A DNA stretch of 64,000 bases from Methanomassiliicoccus sp. GTDB lineage: Archaea > Thermoplasmatota > Thermoplasmata > Methanomassiliicoccales > Methanomassiliicoccaceae. Below the pieces are notes generated by a model that was not told the DNA's origin, made no database searches, and worked only from the letters and a program-made list of their open reading frames with translations. The DNA is taken from contig JAAYAX010000013.1 of assembly GCA_012719175.1 (NCBI GenBank), positions 1-64,000 of the forward strand, read 5' to 3'. Each line of letters starts with the position of its first letter. Positions within the stretch are counted from its first letter, which is position 1. The position numbers and the translations under genes are program-made. This document shows, piece after piece, positions 12,366 to 35,703 of this stretch.

Positions 12366-13033
12366 CGCCCTGTCCGACCGCTCTCTTGGAGGAAGGTATC
12401 ACAGAACTCCTGGATGGGGCATAGGTCATGCTTTGGGCGTAGGGGCGTGCATATCTCCTGCCCGAAGCGCACCATCAGCTCGTTGACGGACCTCCATCGT
12501 GGCCTGGGGACCACCACCTTCAACTGTTCCTCGGTGCCATCCGGGCCCGCGCTGCGGACCAGCCCGATGCGGTTGGATATCCTATGTACATGGGTATCGA
12601 CGCAAATAGCATCCTTTTCGAAGGCATATGCCAGAACGCAGTTGGCGGTCTTCCTTCCTACCATGGGCAGGGCCATCAGTCCCTCGATGTCCGACGGGAC
12701 GGCATCATGGTGCTCCTCGTGTATGATACGGGCGATCTCCTTGATGGCCCTAGCCTTGCCCTTATGGAAGTTCACCGCTCCAATGGCCGCCGTGATGCTC
12801 TCCTCGGGAGCGTTCATCAGGGCCCGGGGTGTCCCATATTCGGAGAACAGCTTCTCGCTCGCTATCCAGGTGCATTCATCCCTGGTCCTCTGGGACAGGA
12901 CGGTGGCTATGAGCATGGTGAAGGGGTCCCTCCTCCAAGAGGGTTCCAGCCCTATGGCGGAACCTGGTGATGCCCTCTGCGGAGAGCGTGCCTCCAGCCT
13001 GTCCAGGATCTCATCGACGGGTTTTTCGATCAT
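12362..13033 (-). CDS. nth: Endonuclease III-like DNA glycosylase/AP lyase
   Basis: The 223-residue base-excision-repair enzyme should remove oxidised pyrimidines. The helix-hairpin-helix has LPMVGRKTA, with the catalytic Lys, and the catalytic Asp lies in VDTHVHRISNR. In the C-terminal iron-sulfur region, the usual C-x6-C-x2-C-x5-C reads C-x6-H-x2-C-x5-C (ICTPLRPKHDLCPIQEFC). Three Cys remain and His takes the second position. The cluster may be Cys3His-ligated, weakened or lost. The start overlaps the end of folC by 23 bases. Confidence 0.92.
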   Translation of the reverse strand: MIEKPVDEILDRLEARSPQRASPGSAIGLEPSWRRDPFTMLIATVLSQRTRDECTWIASEKLFSEYGTPRALMNAPEESITAAIGAVNFHKGKARAIKEIARIIHEEHHDAVPSDIEGLMALPMVGRKTANCVLAYAFEKDAICVDTHVHRISNRIGLVRSAGPDGTEEQLKVVVPRPRWRSVNELMVRFGQEICTPLRPKHDLCPIQEFCDTFLQESGRTGR

Positions 13034-29772: not shown

Positions 29773-31614
29773 CTACCTTCCATCCTCGGAGTAAAGGTCC
29801 TCGATGCCCAGCGGGTGGGCTCTCTCCCTTACCGACCTGGAGACCTCCGGGGTCATCACGATCTCATCCGGCCACTCCCGCTCATGGCCGTCCACCGATC
29901 CCTTCTTGGTGGCATCGATGATGAGCTGCCTATCCGCCATCCAAACGTCTCGCAGGGGATCCACATTGTTAAAGAACTTCCAAAGACAGAGGGAGCTGTC
30001 GGTAAGGTCGATGTCGTCGAACAGGACGATCACACCCTCCCTGGTCAGCTGGGGGCTCCTTTCCAACAGGTCCCGATAGTACTTGGAGCTCTTCCATTTC
30101 TTATCAATGCTAAGGAGCAGGAGAGGGGTCCTGCGGCCAGCTGCGGCCATGCGGAAGGAGATGAAGCCCCTGTCCAGGTCTCTGAGCACCTCCCTGATCT
30201 CCATCTCTGAACGATAAGGTGAGAAGCGGGACTCGCCACGGGACCTCTCTCCCGGCCTCCGTTCCGTGGCATCGAGACCCAGCTTTCCACCGAACAGAGG
30301 GTCCGGCGCGGAGTGGTCCAGAACGTCCAGCACACCCTCCGTGAGCACCACGTCGGTCCACGGGTCGATGGTGTCCAGCAGGTGATCGAACAGGACCTCT
30401 GGCTTCAGGGGAACGTCCTCGTCGACGACGGCAATCATCTTGGCGAAGCTCATCTGCCCGCTCCCCCAAAGTGCGCTCATCACCTTCCGGGCGTGGAGCG
30501 GGTATTCCTTGCGAATTGAGACCACCACGATATTGTGGAAGACACCTTCCCATGGCATCCAATAGTCCACTATCTCCGGGACGACCATCCGCAACGGCGG
30601 TAGGAAGATCCTCTCCGTGGCCTTCGCTAGGTAGCAGTCCTCCATGGGCGGACGTCCCACCACGGTAGCACTGTATATGGCGTCCCGGCGGTGGGTCACG
30701 GCGGTCACATGGAACACTGGATACTCGCCCTTGAGGGAGTAGTAACCGGTATGGTCCCCGAACGGCCCCTCGGTCCGGGTCTCACCCGGTTCCACATATC
30801 CTTCGAGGACGAACTCCGCCGTTGCCGGCACTTCCAGGTCCACTGTGAGGCATTTAACAAGATCTACGGGAGTCCCCTGGATGAAACCGGCCAGCAGCAT
30901 CTCGTCCATCCCTTGGGGCATGGGGGCGGTGGCCGCGTACGTCACCGCCGGGGCAGTGCCGATGGCCACCGCCACCGGCATGCGCCTTCCTTCCTTCTCG
31001 TACCCGTGGTAGTTGTGACTGCCGTCCTTGTGGATGTGCCAGTGCATGCCGGTGGTGTTACGGTCGTAGATCTGCATGCGGTACATGCCTACGTTCCTTT
31101 TCCCCTCCACGCTCTTGGTGAACACCACCGGAAGGGTAACGAACCTGCCCCCATCCTGGGGCCAGCACTTGAGCACCGGGATGGTGCCTAGATCGACCTC
31201 GTTCCCTGTCATGACCACTTCCTGGCATGGCGCTCTCCCGCCCTTCTTCACCTTGGGGAGGCACTTCGCCAGTCCCATAAGCTCCGGGAGCGTTCCCACC
31301 TTACCCATGAAGGTGGAGGGCATGGACATCTTCAGCAGTCCCGAGATCCTCTCTGCGAGTTCGTCGGGGGAATCGGCCTCCAGGGCCATGGCCATCCTCC
31401 TGTCGCTGCCGAAAGCGTTGGTCAGCACGGGGAAACTGCTACCGATCACGTTCTCGAACAACAGTGCCTTCCCGCCCCCCGGTACCTTGGACATGCGGTC
31501 GGTGATCTCCGTGATCTCCAGTTCCGGCGATACCGGCCCAACGACCCTCTTCAGCTCCCCTTCCTTCTCCAGACGTTTCACGAAGCTGTGCAGGTCCCTG
31601 TAGGTCATTGTCAT
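29773..31614 (-). CDS. ubiD: UbiD-family aromatic acid decarboxylase
   Basis: The 613-residue enzyme belongs to the prenylated-FMN-dependent decarboxylases. In quinone synthesis UbiD (or MqnL in the futalosine route) removes the carboxyl group of the prenylated ring acid. Visible motifs are GGKALLFENV, the metal/cofactor region VEPGETRTEGPFGDHTGYYS, and SKSRF-like conserved segments toward the C-terminus. Length fits the longer archaeal/MqnL-type forms. Start ATG 31614 overlaps the ubiE stop as TGATG; ATG 31608 is an alternative. UbiX, which makes the cofactor, is not in the window. It is last in the operon with the importer, UbiA and UbiE. Confidence 0.88.
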   Translation of the reverse strand: MTMTYRDLHSFVKRLEKEGELKRVVGPVSPELEITEITDRMSKVPGGGKALLFENVIGSSFPVLTNAFGSDRRMAMALEADSPDELAERISGLLKMSMPSTFMGKVGTLPELMGLAKCLPKVKKGGRAPCQEVVMTGNEVDLGTIPVLKCWPQDGGRFVTLPVVFTKSVEGKRNVGMYRMQIYDRNTTGMHWHIHKDGSHNYHGYEKEGRRMPVAVAIGTAPAVTYAATAPMPQGMDEMLLAGFIQGTPVDLVKCLTVDLEVPATAEFVLEGYVEPGETRTEGPFGDHTGYYSLKGEYPVFHVTAVTHRRDAIYSATVVGRPPMEDCYLAKATERIFLPPLRMVVPEIVDYWMPWEGVFHNIVVVSIRKEYPLHARKVMSALWGSGQMSFAKMIAVVDEDVPLKPEVLFDHLLDTIDPWTDVVLTEGVLDVLDHSAPDPLFGGKLGLDATERRPGERSRGESRFSPYRSEMEIREVLRDLDRGFISFRMAAAGRRTPLLLLSIDKKWKSSKYYRDLLERSPQLTREGVIVLFDDIDLTDSSLCLWKFFNNVDPLRDVWMADRQLIIDATKKGSVDGHEREWPDEIVMTPEVSRSVRERAHPLGIEDLYSEDGR

Positions 31615-32339
31615 CACTTCTCCAGTAGGTAGATATGGCATGCCCCCAACGTCAGCTCCCTTATCTCCAGCGGGGTGAAGCCCGCAGCCGCCATCTTGTC
31701 CTTCAGGACGTCAGGGGAGGGGAACGTGATGATGGAGTCGCACAGGTATCGGTATGAAGACTCATCTCCCTTCTGGAGGCGGACCACCACGGGCATGAGC
31801 TTGGTGAGGTAGAAGACCATGCCCTGCCTGATCACGGGATAGCGGGGTATGGACAGCTCCACCACAGCCAGACGACCGCCGGGCCTGAGGATCCGGTGCA
31901 CCTCCCTGAGGAAGCCGTCGATATCGATCATGTTGCGGACGCCGAAGGCCACCATGGCCATATCAAAGGCCGCGTCCTTGAAGGGGGTGTTCAAAGCATC
32001 ACCCTGGATCACGGGATAGGGGGCGTCCTGCCGACCCTTTCTCCACTTGGTGAGCGCGGTCCGGAGCATGTTGCGCGAAAGGTCGATACCCACTATGTCC
32101 CCGCCGTTCGTTGCCATCGCCTGCAGGGCCATGTCCCCGGTCCCCGTGGCGATGTCCAGGACCCGGTCCCCCGGACGGATGTCCAACATCTCCAGCGTAC
32201 GCTTACGCCACCGGCGGTCGATGGAACCGGACATGAGCAGGTTGAGGCGGTCGTAGGTCGGAGTGATATCGTCGAACATGCCTCCGATGCGCGACGGCCT
32301 CTTGTCCATCTCCTTTGCGACGTGGGTTGGCAGGCTCAT
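31614..32339 (-). CDS. ubiE: UbiE/MenG-type quinone ring methyltransferase
   Basis: The 241-residue SAM-dependent enzyme should methylate the ring of a prenylated quinol, usually late in ubiquinone or menaquinone synthesis. Motif I is VLDIATGTGDMA; family signatures are MFDDITPTYDRLN near the N-terminus, FGVRNMIDIDGFLREVHRIL and GGRLAVVELSIPR. These are the UbiE signatures and not those of a general methyltransferase. It follows the UbiA end by 40 bases and overlaps ubiD by one base. Whether the product is menaquinone, a methanophenazine-like or another quinone is not shown. Confidence 0.88.
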   Translation of the reverse strand: MSLPTHVAKEMDKRPSRIGGMFDDITPTYDRLNLLMSGSIDRRWRKRTLEMLDIRPGDRVLDIATGTGDMALQAMATNGGDIVGIDLSRNMLRTALTKWRKGRQDAPYPVIQGDALNTPFKDAAFDMAMVAFGVRNMIDIDGFLREVHRILRPGGRLAVVELSIPRYPVIRQGMVFYLTKLMPVVVRLQKGDESSYRYLCDSIITFPSPDVLKDKMAAAGFTPLEIRELTLGACHIYLLEK

Positions 32340-32379
32340 ACGGACCCTCCTGACTTTCCCATCCGGTACTGGACGTTGC

Positions 32380-34008
32380 TCATGAGAGGAATACCCCCAG
32401 GGCTATGGCTACGAAGACCATCACCGATATGATGCTGTTGACGTTGAAAAAGGCGACGTTTATCCTGGTGAGGTCCGAAGGCCGGACCAGGAGGTGCTCT
32501 ACGATGAAAAGTGCCCCTATCAGCAGGAGGCACGCGAGGTAGGCAAGGCCCATAGGCAGCATCCAGTAGAGGGCGGCCAGGCTGGAGAAGCTGATGACGT
32601 GAAGAATCGATGACACGGCCAGGGCGGCCGGCACTCCCAGACGGGAGGGAATGGACCTCAGGCCCTCCTTTCGGTCGAAATCGATGTCCTGGCAGGCATA
32701 TAGTATGTCGAACCCGGCGATGTAAGTGGTCAGGGCCAGGCTGAGAACGGCCGTAGCCTCGGTGATCGTCCCTGCCACTGCCACGCTCGCCCCCAGGGGC
32801 ATGAGCCCGATGGATATGCCCAGGACGAGATGGCTGGCAGAGGTGAAGCGCTTGGTGTAGGAGTATCCCAAGAGGATGGCCAGTACGGGGAAGGATAGCA
32901 CGAAGCATAGAGGCGAGAGCATGGCCGCGGCTCCGACGAACACGATCGCTGAGAGGAGCGTGAACGATCCCGCCTGCTTCACCGAGAGCGTCCCCTGGGG
33001 GATGTGCCGCCCGCTGGTGCGGGGATTCCGGCTGTCGATCCCCGCATCCACGATGCGGTTGAAGCCCATGGCCGCGGACCGCGCCCCTACTATGGCCACT
33101 ATTATCCACAGGACCATCTCTAAGGTGATGATGTGATCGGTGCTGAGTATCACCAGGGCCGCCAGCCCGAAGGGAAGGGCGAACACCGTGTGGCTTATCT
33201 TAATCATGTGGGCGTAGTTCACGGCCTTGTCCCAGGACCCCCCCTCTCCCTGGTCATCCTCCGCTGCCCGCGTCCAGCGGCACACGCGGCGCTCCAGGTA
33301 GGTGAACGATTCATAAATGGCGATGCCCAGGATGCTCATGGCCAGTATACCGACGTATATCTCGGTATAGTTACCCCAGGTCCAGGCGTTCGTTATCATA
33401 TAGCCAAGTCCCGAGGTTCCCGCGAACGTCTCGGCGAAATACAGCACCGAGATGGAGGTCCCCGTGATTATGCGAAGGGCGGTGAAGCAGGAGGGCAGGG
33501 CCGCGGGGATCACCGCCTCCCTGATGATGTCCCCCTCCGATGCCCCCATGGACCGCATGGAGTCGATGTACTTGCGGTCCAGGCCGCTCACCCCTTCCTT
33601 GGTGGCGACCAGGATCTGGAAGAAGACCACCAGGGTGATGAGCAATATCTTCGATAGGTCTCCGAGGCCGAAGAGCAGGATCATCACCGGCAGGAACACC
33701 ATCTTGGGGATGGGATAGGTCAAGAAGATCAGGGGGCTGACATAGCGATCGGTCTTGCGATCATAGCCGATCATTATCCCTAGAGGGAAGGCCAGAAGCC
33801 ATGCCAGGGCGATGCTGGAGAGCACCCGGAAGGTGCTGGCTGCGAAGTTCGACCAGAACGTCGAGGTGCCGACCGCGGCCGCGAACGCCCTCAAGGTCTC
33901 CTCCGGACCTGGTAGTACCGGGGAGTTCAGGAGGACCGCGGCCACCTTCCACGCCAGAAGGCATGCGGCCAGGGACAGGGCGTATCCCAGCAGGCGCTGC
34001 TTGTTCAT
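32380..34008 (-). CDS. ABC permease joined in frame to a UbiA prenyltransferase
   Basis: As given, one frame codes for 542 residues with two parts. Residues 1-245 are an SsuC/TauC-type permease with about six membrane segments and the ATPase-contact motif MGASEGDIIREAVIPAALP (153-172). Residues 263-542 are a UbiA-type prenyltransferase with NRIVDAGID (317-325) and DIDFDRKEGLRSIPSRLG (441-458), the two Asp-rich motifs of MqnP-like members. ATG 34008 overlaps the ATPase stop as ATGA. A run of seven C (33238-33244; G on the coding strand) sits at the junction. With six, the permease would stop at TGA 33221-33219, overlapping GTG 33222 where a normal UbiA would start. Fusion or two genes: both remain open. 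Confidence 0.8.
   Translation of the reverse strand: MNKQRLLGYALSLAACLLAWKVAAVLLNSPVLPGPEETLRAFAAAVGTSTFWSNFAASTFRVLSSIALAWLLAFPLGIMIGYDRKTDRYVSPLIFLTYPIPKMVFLPVMILLFGLGDLSKILLITLVVFFQILVATKEGVSGLDRKYIDSMRSMGASEGDIIREAVIPAALPSCFTALRIITGTSISVLYFAETFAGTSGLGYMITNAWTWGNYTEIYVGILAMSILGIAIYESFTYLERRVCRWTRAAEDDQGEGGSWDKAVNYAHMIKISHTVFALPFGLAALVILSTDHIITLEMVLWIIVAIVGARSAAMGFNRIVDAGIDSRNPRTSGRHIPQGTLSVKQAGSFTLLSAIVFVGAAAMLSPLCFVLSFPVLAILLGYSYTKRFTSASHLVLGISIGLMPLGASVAVAGTITEATAVLSLALTTYIAGFDILYACQDIDFDRKEGLRSIPSRLGVPAALAVSSILHVISFSSLAALYWMLPMGLAYLACLLLIGALFIVEHLLVRPSDLTRINVAFFNVNSIISVMVFVAIALGVFLS
33238..33244. other. Homopolymer at the permease-UbiA junction
   Basis: Seven C on the plus strand, G on the coding strand. 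It decides whether permease and prenyltransferase are one frame or two. The alternative (six bases) gives a GTGA overlap like the ATGA overlap upstream in the same operon. Confidence 0.85.
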
Positions 34009-34751
34009 AGGCCCTCCACCGCCCGGCGGACCTCTCTGCATACGGCGAAGAAGCGCTCGTCGCTGCGGTATCCCTTACCTCCGGCGTCAGGATTGGGGAC
34101 GATAGCGCGAATTCCGCACGGACGGCCGCCTAGGACCATGATCTCATCCCCCAGGAATACTGCCTCCTCAATGCTGTGGGTCACAGTGACCATGGTGAGC
34201 CCCTTCTGCTCACGGACCTCCAGCAGGGTGTTCTGCAGCCTCTCCCGGGTGAGGGTGTCCAGCGATGAGAATGGCTCGTCCATCAGCAGGATGGAGGGCT
34301 CCATGACCAGAGCCCTGCCTATCGCCAGCCTTTGTCTCTCGCCCCCGCTCATCCTGCTGGGGTAGTCGTCCTCATGGCCTTCCAGATCGAGGTATTTGAT
34401 GATCTCCCGGGCACGGCGGTCCTGCTCCCCCTTGGGGACGCTCCTGATCCTCATGCCCAGGCAGATGTTGCCCCATACTGTCTTCCAGGGGAGGAGGCCG
34501 AAGTCCTGGAGGATCATCCCCACCTCCCGGGAAGGTCCCTTGACCTCCCGGCCTTCGATAAGGACCTTGCCCGACGTCGGCCGCGTCAGGCCGGCCAGCA
34601 TGTAAAGTAGAGTGCTTTTACCGCAGCCTGAAGGTCCTATAATGGTCAATGAACGTCCGCTCTCTACCGAGAATGACAAATCCTCGATGACCCTGATCTC
34701 AGGAGCGAACTCTTTGGTGAGCCCCTCGGCAGTAAGCATTCGTTCACCCAT
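34005..34751 (-). CDS. ABC importer ATPase (SsuB/TauB type)
   Basis: The 248-residue ATPase drives the importer with the permease that follows. Walker A is GPSGCGKST, the signature is MSGGERQRL, Walker B is ILLMDEPFSSLD, and the switch His is in TVTHSIEEA. This subfamily serves nitrate, sulfonate, taurine, thiamine-precursor and other small anions. Start ATG 34751 overlaps the binding-protein stop by eight bases; ATG 34739 is the other choice. Together with the binding protein and the permease it is a complete importer, placed before three quinone-type enzymes. Confidence 0.93.
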   Translation of the reverse strand: MGERMLTAEGLTKEFAPEIRVIEDLSFSVESGRSLTIIGPSGCGKSTLLYMLAGLTRPTSGKVLIEGREVKGPSREVGMILQDFGLLPWKTVWGNICLGMRIRSVPKGEQDRRAREIIKYLDLEGHEDDYPSRMSGGERQRLAIGRALVMEPSILLMDEPFSSLDTLTRERLQNTLLEVREQKGLTMVTVTHSIEEAVFLGDEIMVLGGRPCGIRAIVPNPDAGGKGYRSDERFFAVCREVRRAVEGL

Positions 34752-35703
34752 GCAGTCCCGTCGCCATCACGTCGTTGAAGGAGAACCGCTCTGTGAGTAT
34801 TCCGATATCCATCATCCAATCCTGAACCCTTTCCAGGTCCTCCCCCGCGGGGAGGGTCACGGGCGACAGAGGCGGGAAGGCGAAGGTGTTCCGGAGCTCC
34901 TCCGGGAAGTGGAGCTTATCATACAATACCTGGCTGTATCTCCATGGGTCCTCGTTGACCTTGGCAACACTGGCATTGTAGGCTTTCAGGAAGCTCTTGG
35001 CTGCCTGTTGGTTCTCGGAGATCCAATCCCCCCTCAGGGCGATCACGGTGGCGGTGGTGTTGACCGCGCGGTCATCCGTAAGCAGGATCGCACCATCACT
35101 TATCGCCCGTGTCACGAATGGTTCCGGGAGAACGGCAACGCTGATCTGGTCAGAGAGCAGGGAGCTGTACCGGATGGGGATGGCCGGGACCTGCTGGACC
35201 AATACCTCATCGGTTATCCCGTTGGCCGTCAGCATCTCGGTCATGAAGTACTCGGAGATGGACGCCACCGAGGTCGCGATGGACGTCCCGTTCAACTGCG
35301 TGATGTCACTGATGCCCGAGTTCGGTGAGGCCAGGATAGCGAACATGCGGTTGTCCGCTAGCGTTCGGTAATCGACCGTGACGACCCTCACGTCCATCGT
35401 CTTCCTGAGGACGAGGGTGTTGACGAGGTCTCCGAAGTATCCCTGAATGCTTCCAGCCGTGAACGCCGCGTCCCGCTCCAAGGCGCTATTGAACTCCACG
35501 AGCTGAACGTCGATGCCCTCCTGATCGAACAGTCCCTCCTCTTCGGCCACATGGAGGGGCAGGGTATCGATGACGGGGAGAACCCCAATCCGCAACACCT
35601 TGGTCTCCTCCTTGGGAGTCGATGCCATAAAGGCTCCCGCCGCCACCACCACCGCGACCAAGATCAGGGCGATGATGAACAAGATCCTGTTCCGTTTCAC
35701 CAT
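34744..35703 (-). CDS. Membrane-anchored substrate-binding protein of the quinone-linked importer
   Basis: The 319-residue protein begins with a basic stretch and one membrane segment, ILFIIALILVAVVVAAGAF (7-25), and no lipobox Cys, so it is a signal anchor or cleaved signal. The rest is a NitT/TauT/SsuA-type binding protein, with VLRIGVLPVIDTLPLHVAEE at the start of the mature part, HVAEEEGLF and SDQISVAVLPEPF. Such proteins bind small organic anions. MqnA and MqnD of the futalosine menaquinone route share this fold, from general knowledge. ATG 35703 has GGAG eight bases upstream. The open frame upstream to 35895 is not supported by a ribosome site. Confidence 0.83.
   Translation of the reverse strand: MVKRNRILFIIALILVAVVVAAGAFMASTPKEETKVLRIGVLPVIDTLPLHVAEEEGLFDQEGIDVQLVEFNSALERDAAFTAGSIQGYFGDLVNTLVLRKTMDVRVVTVDYRTLADNRMFAILASPNSGISDITQLNGTSIATSVASISEYFMTEMLTANGITDEVLVQQVPAIPIRYSSLLSDQISVAVLPEPFVTRAISDGAILLTDDRAVNTTATVIALRGDWISENQQAAKSFLKAYNASVAKVNEDPWRYSQVLYDKLHFPEELRNTFAFPPLSPVTLPAGEDLERVQDWMMDIGILTERFSFNDVMATGLHG

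Follow-up and report, generated by a model that had tools for sequence, protein, structure and literature searches.

The DNA analysed here, a 64,000-nucleotide stretch (the window) of Methanomassiliicoccus sp. (GCA_012719175.1, contig JAAYAX010000013.1, positions 1 to 64,000), carries on its minus strand, from 35703 to 29773, a run of five genes encoding six functions (Table 1). A preliminary description had an ABC importer joined to UbiA, UbiE and UbiD through overlapping starts and stops. All six functions were recovered, with the correction that permease and UbiA form one gene, and the overlaps were found between the substrate-binding protein (SBP) and ATPase genes (8 bp), the ATPase and fusion genes (4 bp) and ubiE and ubiD (1 bp), whereas a gap of 40 bp separates the fusion gene from ubiE. 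The likely fusion start at 34008 overlaps the ATPase stop, and the frames of two relatives begin exactly there. The SBP has no lipobox; the ATPase shows the Walker A motif GPSGCGKST and the signature MSGGE, and the C terminus of UbiD gives a second, partial match to UbiD_C.

Table 1. Genes of the five-gene unit in the window, in gene order along the minus strand.
Product	Length (aa)	Position	Strand	Model match
Substrate-binding protein (SBP), SsuA/NMT1 fold, N-terminal transmembrane anchor	319	34744..35703	minus	Pfam NMT1, 8.7e-17
ABC importer ATPase	248	34005..34751	minus	Pfam ABC_tran, 4.4e-35
Fused permease-UbiA protein	542	32380..34008	minus	BPD_transp_1, 7.3e-25; UbiA, 5.2e-49
UbiE/MenG methyltransferase	241	31614..32339	minus	TIGR01934, 211.1 bits (cut-off 158.35)
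UbiD/MqnL decarboxylase	613	29773..31614	minus	TIGR03701, 625.5 bits (cut-off 495.9)

Residues 1-245 of the fused protein are a permease of the SsuC/NrtB type and residues from about 260 to 542 an MqnP-type UbiA prenyltransferase, with a joining segment of ~15 residues; its relatives in the PDB are CmpB/NrtB and, as the closest solved sequence for UbiA, the A. pernix protein. Both UbiA motifs for metal and prenyl diphosphate, N317xxxD321xxxD325 and D441xxxD445, are invariant in 7 sequences. The UbiA half exceeds the cut-off of the UbiA-like polyprenyltransferase model TIGR01475 (277.3 against 180.8 bits) and stays below those of the narrow curated MqnP models (229-248 against 375-430 bits). 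As MqnP proteins from bacterial mqn clusters likewise fall short of the narrow models, these clade-specific models do not decide membership. With MqnP proteins from bacteria that carry the importer, a number of them encoded inside mqn clusters, this half shares 40-42% identity, and in a tree of 22 sequences (drawn open, some branches long) it groups with bacterial MqnP at a fork supported by 97/96, apart from MenA and the archaeal housekeeping UbiA. Seven consecutive G residues where the halves meet suggested that the fusion might be a sequencing error. Six further species show the same uninterrupted frame, and its openness in seven species together with the variable joining segment excludes such an error. 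The segment differs in length and sequence among species while both halves are strongly conserved, as would be expected of a true two-domain protein. The AlphaFold model of the fused protein reached a pLDDT of 66 and a pTM of 0.44 only.

The importer shares its binding-protein fold, permease family and ATPase family with the SsuABC, TauABC and NrtABC systems. It differs from them in having its permease fused to an enzyme and quinone genes as genomic partners, and in falling below all curated sulfonate, taurine and nitrate cut-offs: against the curated sulfonate/taurine models the SBP scored 79 bits (TIGR01728, cut-off 163.5), the ATPase, whose closest curated model is a taurine ATPase, 198 bits (cut-off 357) and the permease 123 bits (cut-off 342). 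The structure model of the SBP is good (pLDDT 90) and matched the folds of SsuA, Thi5 and PqqT, matches that are generic in kind. For PqqT (PDB 9b1u) the fold match is accompanied by a profile match (4e-7). PqqT belongs to the same superfamily of binding proteins and its ligand, PQQ, is an aromatic carboxylated quinone cofactor; it differs in being only ~18% identical to the SBP over the structural alignment, and no involvement of a prenyltransferase is known for it. The preliminary description had also argued, from the fold that MqnA and MqnD have in common with such binding proteins, that the SBP may have kept a role with naphthoate-type precursors. This argument did not survive, as the proteins have the fold alone in common: profile comparison gave probabilities of 1% for MqnD and 6% for MqnA, and the structural match to MqnA-like entries was no better than that to numerous generic binding proteins. 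A rival reading, in which an ordinary importer of a sulfonate, taurine or a thiamine precursor became fused to and co-transcribed with quinone genes without sharing a substrate with them, would agree with the fold and with the best curated matches, which are SsuA/Tau/Thi5-like, but not with scores so far under the sulfonate and taurine cut-offs.

The two remaining enzymes fit late steps of menaquinone synthesis. UbiD passes the menaquinone-decarboxylase equivalog model and UbiE that of the menaquinone/ubiquinone methyltransferase subfamily (Table 1), and the UbiX of the window genome, encoded elsewhere (G000:C7:33905-34438; TIGR00421, 217.9 bits, over the cut-off), answers the prenyl-FMN requirement of an MqnL (UbiD-type) decarboxylase. 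The 6-naphthoate route requires a separate decarboxylase and the MenA route does not, which makes 1,4-dihydroxy-6-naphthoate the best guess at the substrate. The genes for making such a ring were not found. The window genome, which is 99.6% complete, gave no protein of family PF02621, which recognises both MqnA and MqnD (PMC3914697), no radical SAM protein of MqnE/MqnC grade (weak radical-SAM matches only) and no MenD (best score 52 bits, cut-off 244.2). It has neither a complete futalosine pathway (MqnA, MqnD, MqnE, MqnC) nor a complete Men pathway, the latter judged by MenD alone among the Men genes. The search covered PF02621, MqnE, MqnC and MenD, and archaeal routes unlike Mqn and Men would escape it. 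The earlier remark that no gene for making the aromatic acid lies nearby thus extends to the whole genome, and the other archaea with the fusion give the same picture. The genome carries mcrA, and its McrA identifies the host as a methanogen.

We compared 147 genomes of the order Methanomassiliicoccales and found the fusion in 8 of them, from two families: the window genome with three more from its genus, three from elsewhere in its family and a single one from a different family. Two of the carriers are Methanomassiliicoccales archaeon PtaU1.Bin030 and Methanomassiliicoccus sp. QR_Bin.16. Identity of the fused protein across carriers is 64-93%, and 74% for the copy broken by an assembly gap in the eighth genome (G011), where the permease half lies partly inside the gap. 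The order SBP-ATPase-(permease-UbiA)-UbiE-UbiD is kept in all 8, except that in the gapped contig of G011 no UbiE was seen between fusion and UbiD. In 8 of 8 cases the importer is joined to ubiA and ubiD, and the refuting case named in the preliminary description, related genomes in which the importer never lies next to ubiA/ubiE/ubiD, did not arise. The flanks are unrelated in G009, G014 and G040, so that conservation extends to the unit but stops at its borders. SHMT and NcsA, which lie next door in some carriers, are absent from that position in these three genomes and were rejected as members of the unit. MqnL-grade UbiD (TIGR03701) coincides exactly with the fusion: all 8 carriers have it, and the remaining 139 genomes gave no match of this grade. 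All examined members of the order also have UbiA-family genes of different kinds, so that the fused unit is an addition in a few lineages; as all these members hold a different UbiA, another membrane carrier may exist in the order, which counts against the salvage reading given below. Beside the operon, G014 encodes a GlpC/HdrD-like iron-sulfur protein and G040 encodes two Rieske ferredoxins, which is no more than a hint at the user of the quinone.

A collection scan with the fusion alignment also recovered free-standing bacterial permeases with 44-49% identity, each accompanied, on contigs long enough to show it, by an SBP and an ATPase of related sequence. In the permease tree the archaeal copies are placed by long branches with weak support. 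Several of the bacterial loci adjoin quinone genes. One (L033, genome G147) has the run mqnL-mqnP-ubiX-SBP-ATPase-permease; another (L034) and its relative L060 have dsrM-like-dsrK-like-SBP-ATPase-permease-menA, the menA start overlapping the permease stop; and in two genomes, G149 and G150 (L169 and L175), a second SBP of the family is convergent with menA. PF02621, MqnE and MenD are all absent from G149 and G150, and G150 retains mqnL-mqnP-ubiX. In G359 and G390, menA is the sole UbiA-family gene detected, and neither PF02621 nor MenD was found. By our rough estimate, chance would put a given importer no more than 5 kb from a quinone prenyltransferase in ~1% of genomes of such size. No two of these bacterial arrangements are alike and none matches that of the archaea, so that an inherited chance neighbourhood is no explanation. 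Most other bacterial copies of the importer stand alone with no adjoining quinone gene, as an ordinary sulfonate-type importer would, but a fusion kept across two families and three further kinds of bacterial linkage are hard to explain on those terms, and we consider an ordinary importer without a shared substrate quite improbable.

The importer is not confined to organisms without the whole route, as 13 of the 19 bacterial carriers (G147 included) encode MqnA, along with MqnE/MqnC and MqnP-L-M where examined. A second PF02621 protein, i.e. MqnD, was found in none of those 13; in G283, which is essentially one contig of 1.84 Mb, the lack cannot be put down to an incomplete genome. When genomes of the sampled phylum that have any PF02621 protein were compared, two copies were present in 0 of 10 carriers and 34 of 57 noncarriers (Fisher P = 3.7e-4, uncorrected for relatedness), and 23 of the sampled noncarriers also have a single copy. 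Over all 27 carrier genomes, none encodes a complete known route to dihydroxynaphthoate, as judged by MqnA with MqnD and by MenD. The association may reflect kinship, or else the mqnD-less bacteria salvage what the missing step would have produced. The contrast between carriers and noncarriers could also mean that an unusual precursor, or one from earlier in the pathway, is what the importer takes up, the ring being completed by an enzyme yet to be recognised, and that in bacteria it compensates for the missing MqnD step. We regard this as very improbable: the archaeal operon lacks any such extra enzyme, close relatedness of the carriers may account for the association, and absence of mqnD has been reported before without the importer, a putative substitute, mqnZ, having been proposed (PMC4746308).

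Taken together, the gene content makes it probable that the unit serves to salvage a respiratory quinone from an imported, preformed aromatic acid. In this route, the anchored SBP would capture the acid, for which 1,4-dihydroxy-6-naphthoate released by other microbes is the likeliest candidate, and transport into the cytoplasm would fall to the ATPase together with the permease half of the fused protein. The UbiA half of the same polypeptide would then attach a polyprenyl chain, UbiD, using prenyl-FMN from UbiX, would remove the carboxyl group, and UbiE would add a methyl group to give what is presumably menaquinone. The fusion would set the entering acceptor beside the prenylating site and may allow direct hand-over. 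In solved relatives the UbiA active site faces the cytoplasm, and a six-helix permease with both ends cytoplasmic would fit a UbiA domain that starts there. The user of the quinone could perhaps be an Fpo-like complex or an HdrD-like enzyme. The route draws on the fusion and gene order, kept by 8 genomes from two families in no fewer than three genomic settings, on the confinement of MqnL-grade UbiD to the 8 fusion genomes among 147, and on the independent bacterial links of the importer family to MqnP/MqnL/UbiX or MenA. With the missing ring pathway, these observations support the reading first offered for the locus, import of an aromatic acid for conversion to a quinone, with naphthoate and menaquinone as the likely substrate and product.

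The same scheme could operate on another aromatic acid, such as phenazine carboxylate or hydroxybenzoate, and yield a methanophenazine-like or benzoquinone carrier. That the host is a methanogen speaks for this, as do the unsolved synthesis of methanophenazine (PMC6315138) and the lipid-soluble carrier of the order, for which the literature gives no identity (PMC4153887); sequence also gives no certain substrate specificity. The enzymes point elsewhere, UbiD passing the MqnL equivalog, UbiE passing TIGR01934 and UbiA grouping with MqnP, and the bacterial relatives of the importer adjoin MqnP/MqnL or MenA, both naphthoate enzymes. We therefore find a different acid unlikely and retain salvage of a naphthoate as the preferred reading.

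The unit resembles the terminal branch of the futalosine pathway, MqnP-MqnL-MqnM-MenG, in that the host has a prenyltransferase, an MqnL-grade decarboxylase, UbiX and UbiE/MenG, but it lacks MqnA/C/D/E and its prenyltransferase is fused to an importer permease, in one run with SBP and ATPase. It also resembles the cross-feeding of DHNA and menaquinone among gut and food bacteria, where the route is truncated and an external quinone precursor is used (PMC5738691, PMC10746273). The transporters have not been identified in those systems and the archaeal locus offers a candidate. Papers from 2016-2017 describe the use of external DHNA by gut bacteria and state that importers of menaquinone or its soluble precursors are unknown, being undescribed or unannotated (PMC5738691, PMC4746308), and our literature search, later papers included, found no description of an importer for DHNA or 1,4-dihydroxy-6-naphthoate. 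Borrel et al. 2014 assigned ubiA and ubiE of Methanomassiliicoccales to an unidentified lipid-soluble carrier (PMC4153887), and the available part of that paper does not report the five-gene operon. To our knowledge, the fusion, the coupling of transport and enzyme and the proposed importer function are new, the enzyme and importer families themselves being known.

Many uncultured microbes need quinone precursors from outside as growth factors, and the locus names a candidate family for their import, tied by gene fusion to the downstream enzymes. On the genomic evidence we lean, by a modest margin of confidence, towards this being the first ABC importer family recognised for precursors of quinone head groups, one that archaea and bacteria have in common, with a combined transport-and-prenylation protein and menaquinone from scavenged naphthoate in these methanogens. 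The locus also offers a candidate for the membrane electron carrier of Methanomassiliicoccales, a question left open in 2014 (PMC4153887). On this reading, some methanogens are predicted to rely on their neighbours for the carrier. The group with the proposed menaquinone route is one thought to lack quinones.

In bacteria, importer-family genes occur in several arrangements in genomes with menA, the prenyltransferase gene of the Men route (table). MqnA/D, MqnE and MenD are absent from both genomes that hold an orphan second binding protein (SBP). No ATPase gene adjoins the divergent permease–SBP pairs at L070 and L071, and menA is the sole UbiA-family gene detected in the genomes that hold them. 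Where a complete importer is followed by menA (L034 and L060), the proteins encoded immediately 5' are possibly its quinone-using partner; genes for iron–sulfur and Rieske proteins adjoin the fusion operon in two archaeal genomes. Elsewhere in bacteria, mqnA, mqnE and mqnC are clustered at L103–L114, in some cases also with mqnP, mqnL and ubiX, and mqnD was not detectable anywhere in the genomes holding these clusters.

Importer-family genes of bacteria and candidate quinone-using neighbors
Feature	Coordinates	Setting
Orphan second SBP	L169:5505-8013	Convergent with menA; Anaerosomatales/Coriobacteriia genome
Orphan second SBP	L175:6718-9307	Convergent with menA; Anaerosomatales/Coriobacteriia genome
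Permease–SBP pair, divergent	L070:8788-10793	
Permease–SBP pair, divergent	L071:8580-11204	
DsrM-like and DsrK-like genes	L034:1158-3156	Immediately 5' of SBP-ATPase-permease-menA
DsrM-like and DsrK-like genes	L060:4675-6673	Immediately 5' of SBP-ATPase-permease-menA
GlpC/HdrD-like iron–sulfur protein	L025:9097-10251	Adjoins fusion operon, G014
Two Rieske ferredoxins	L026:11642-11959 and 12569-12952	Adjoin fusion operon, G040

Relative to bacterial MqnL, the UbiD of the window operon has about 130 additional residues, and Pfam detects a second UbiD_C stretch in it (29773-30400); the extra length is common to the window genome and the other fusion genomes. At L027, the fusion locus of G011, no UbiE was found between the fusion and UbiD; as the region contains runs of N, the gene may have been lost or may fall in an assembly gap. 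McrA had no match in the fusion genome G014 (rated 97% complete) or in genome G010 (rated 95% complete), and these may be non-methanogens or may have the gene in an assembly gap.

Elsewhere in the window, two cobyric acid synthase (CobQ) reading frames lie side by side at 57-2800, the second matching the N-terminal half of the model only.
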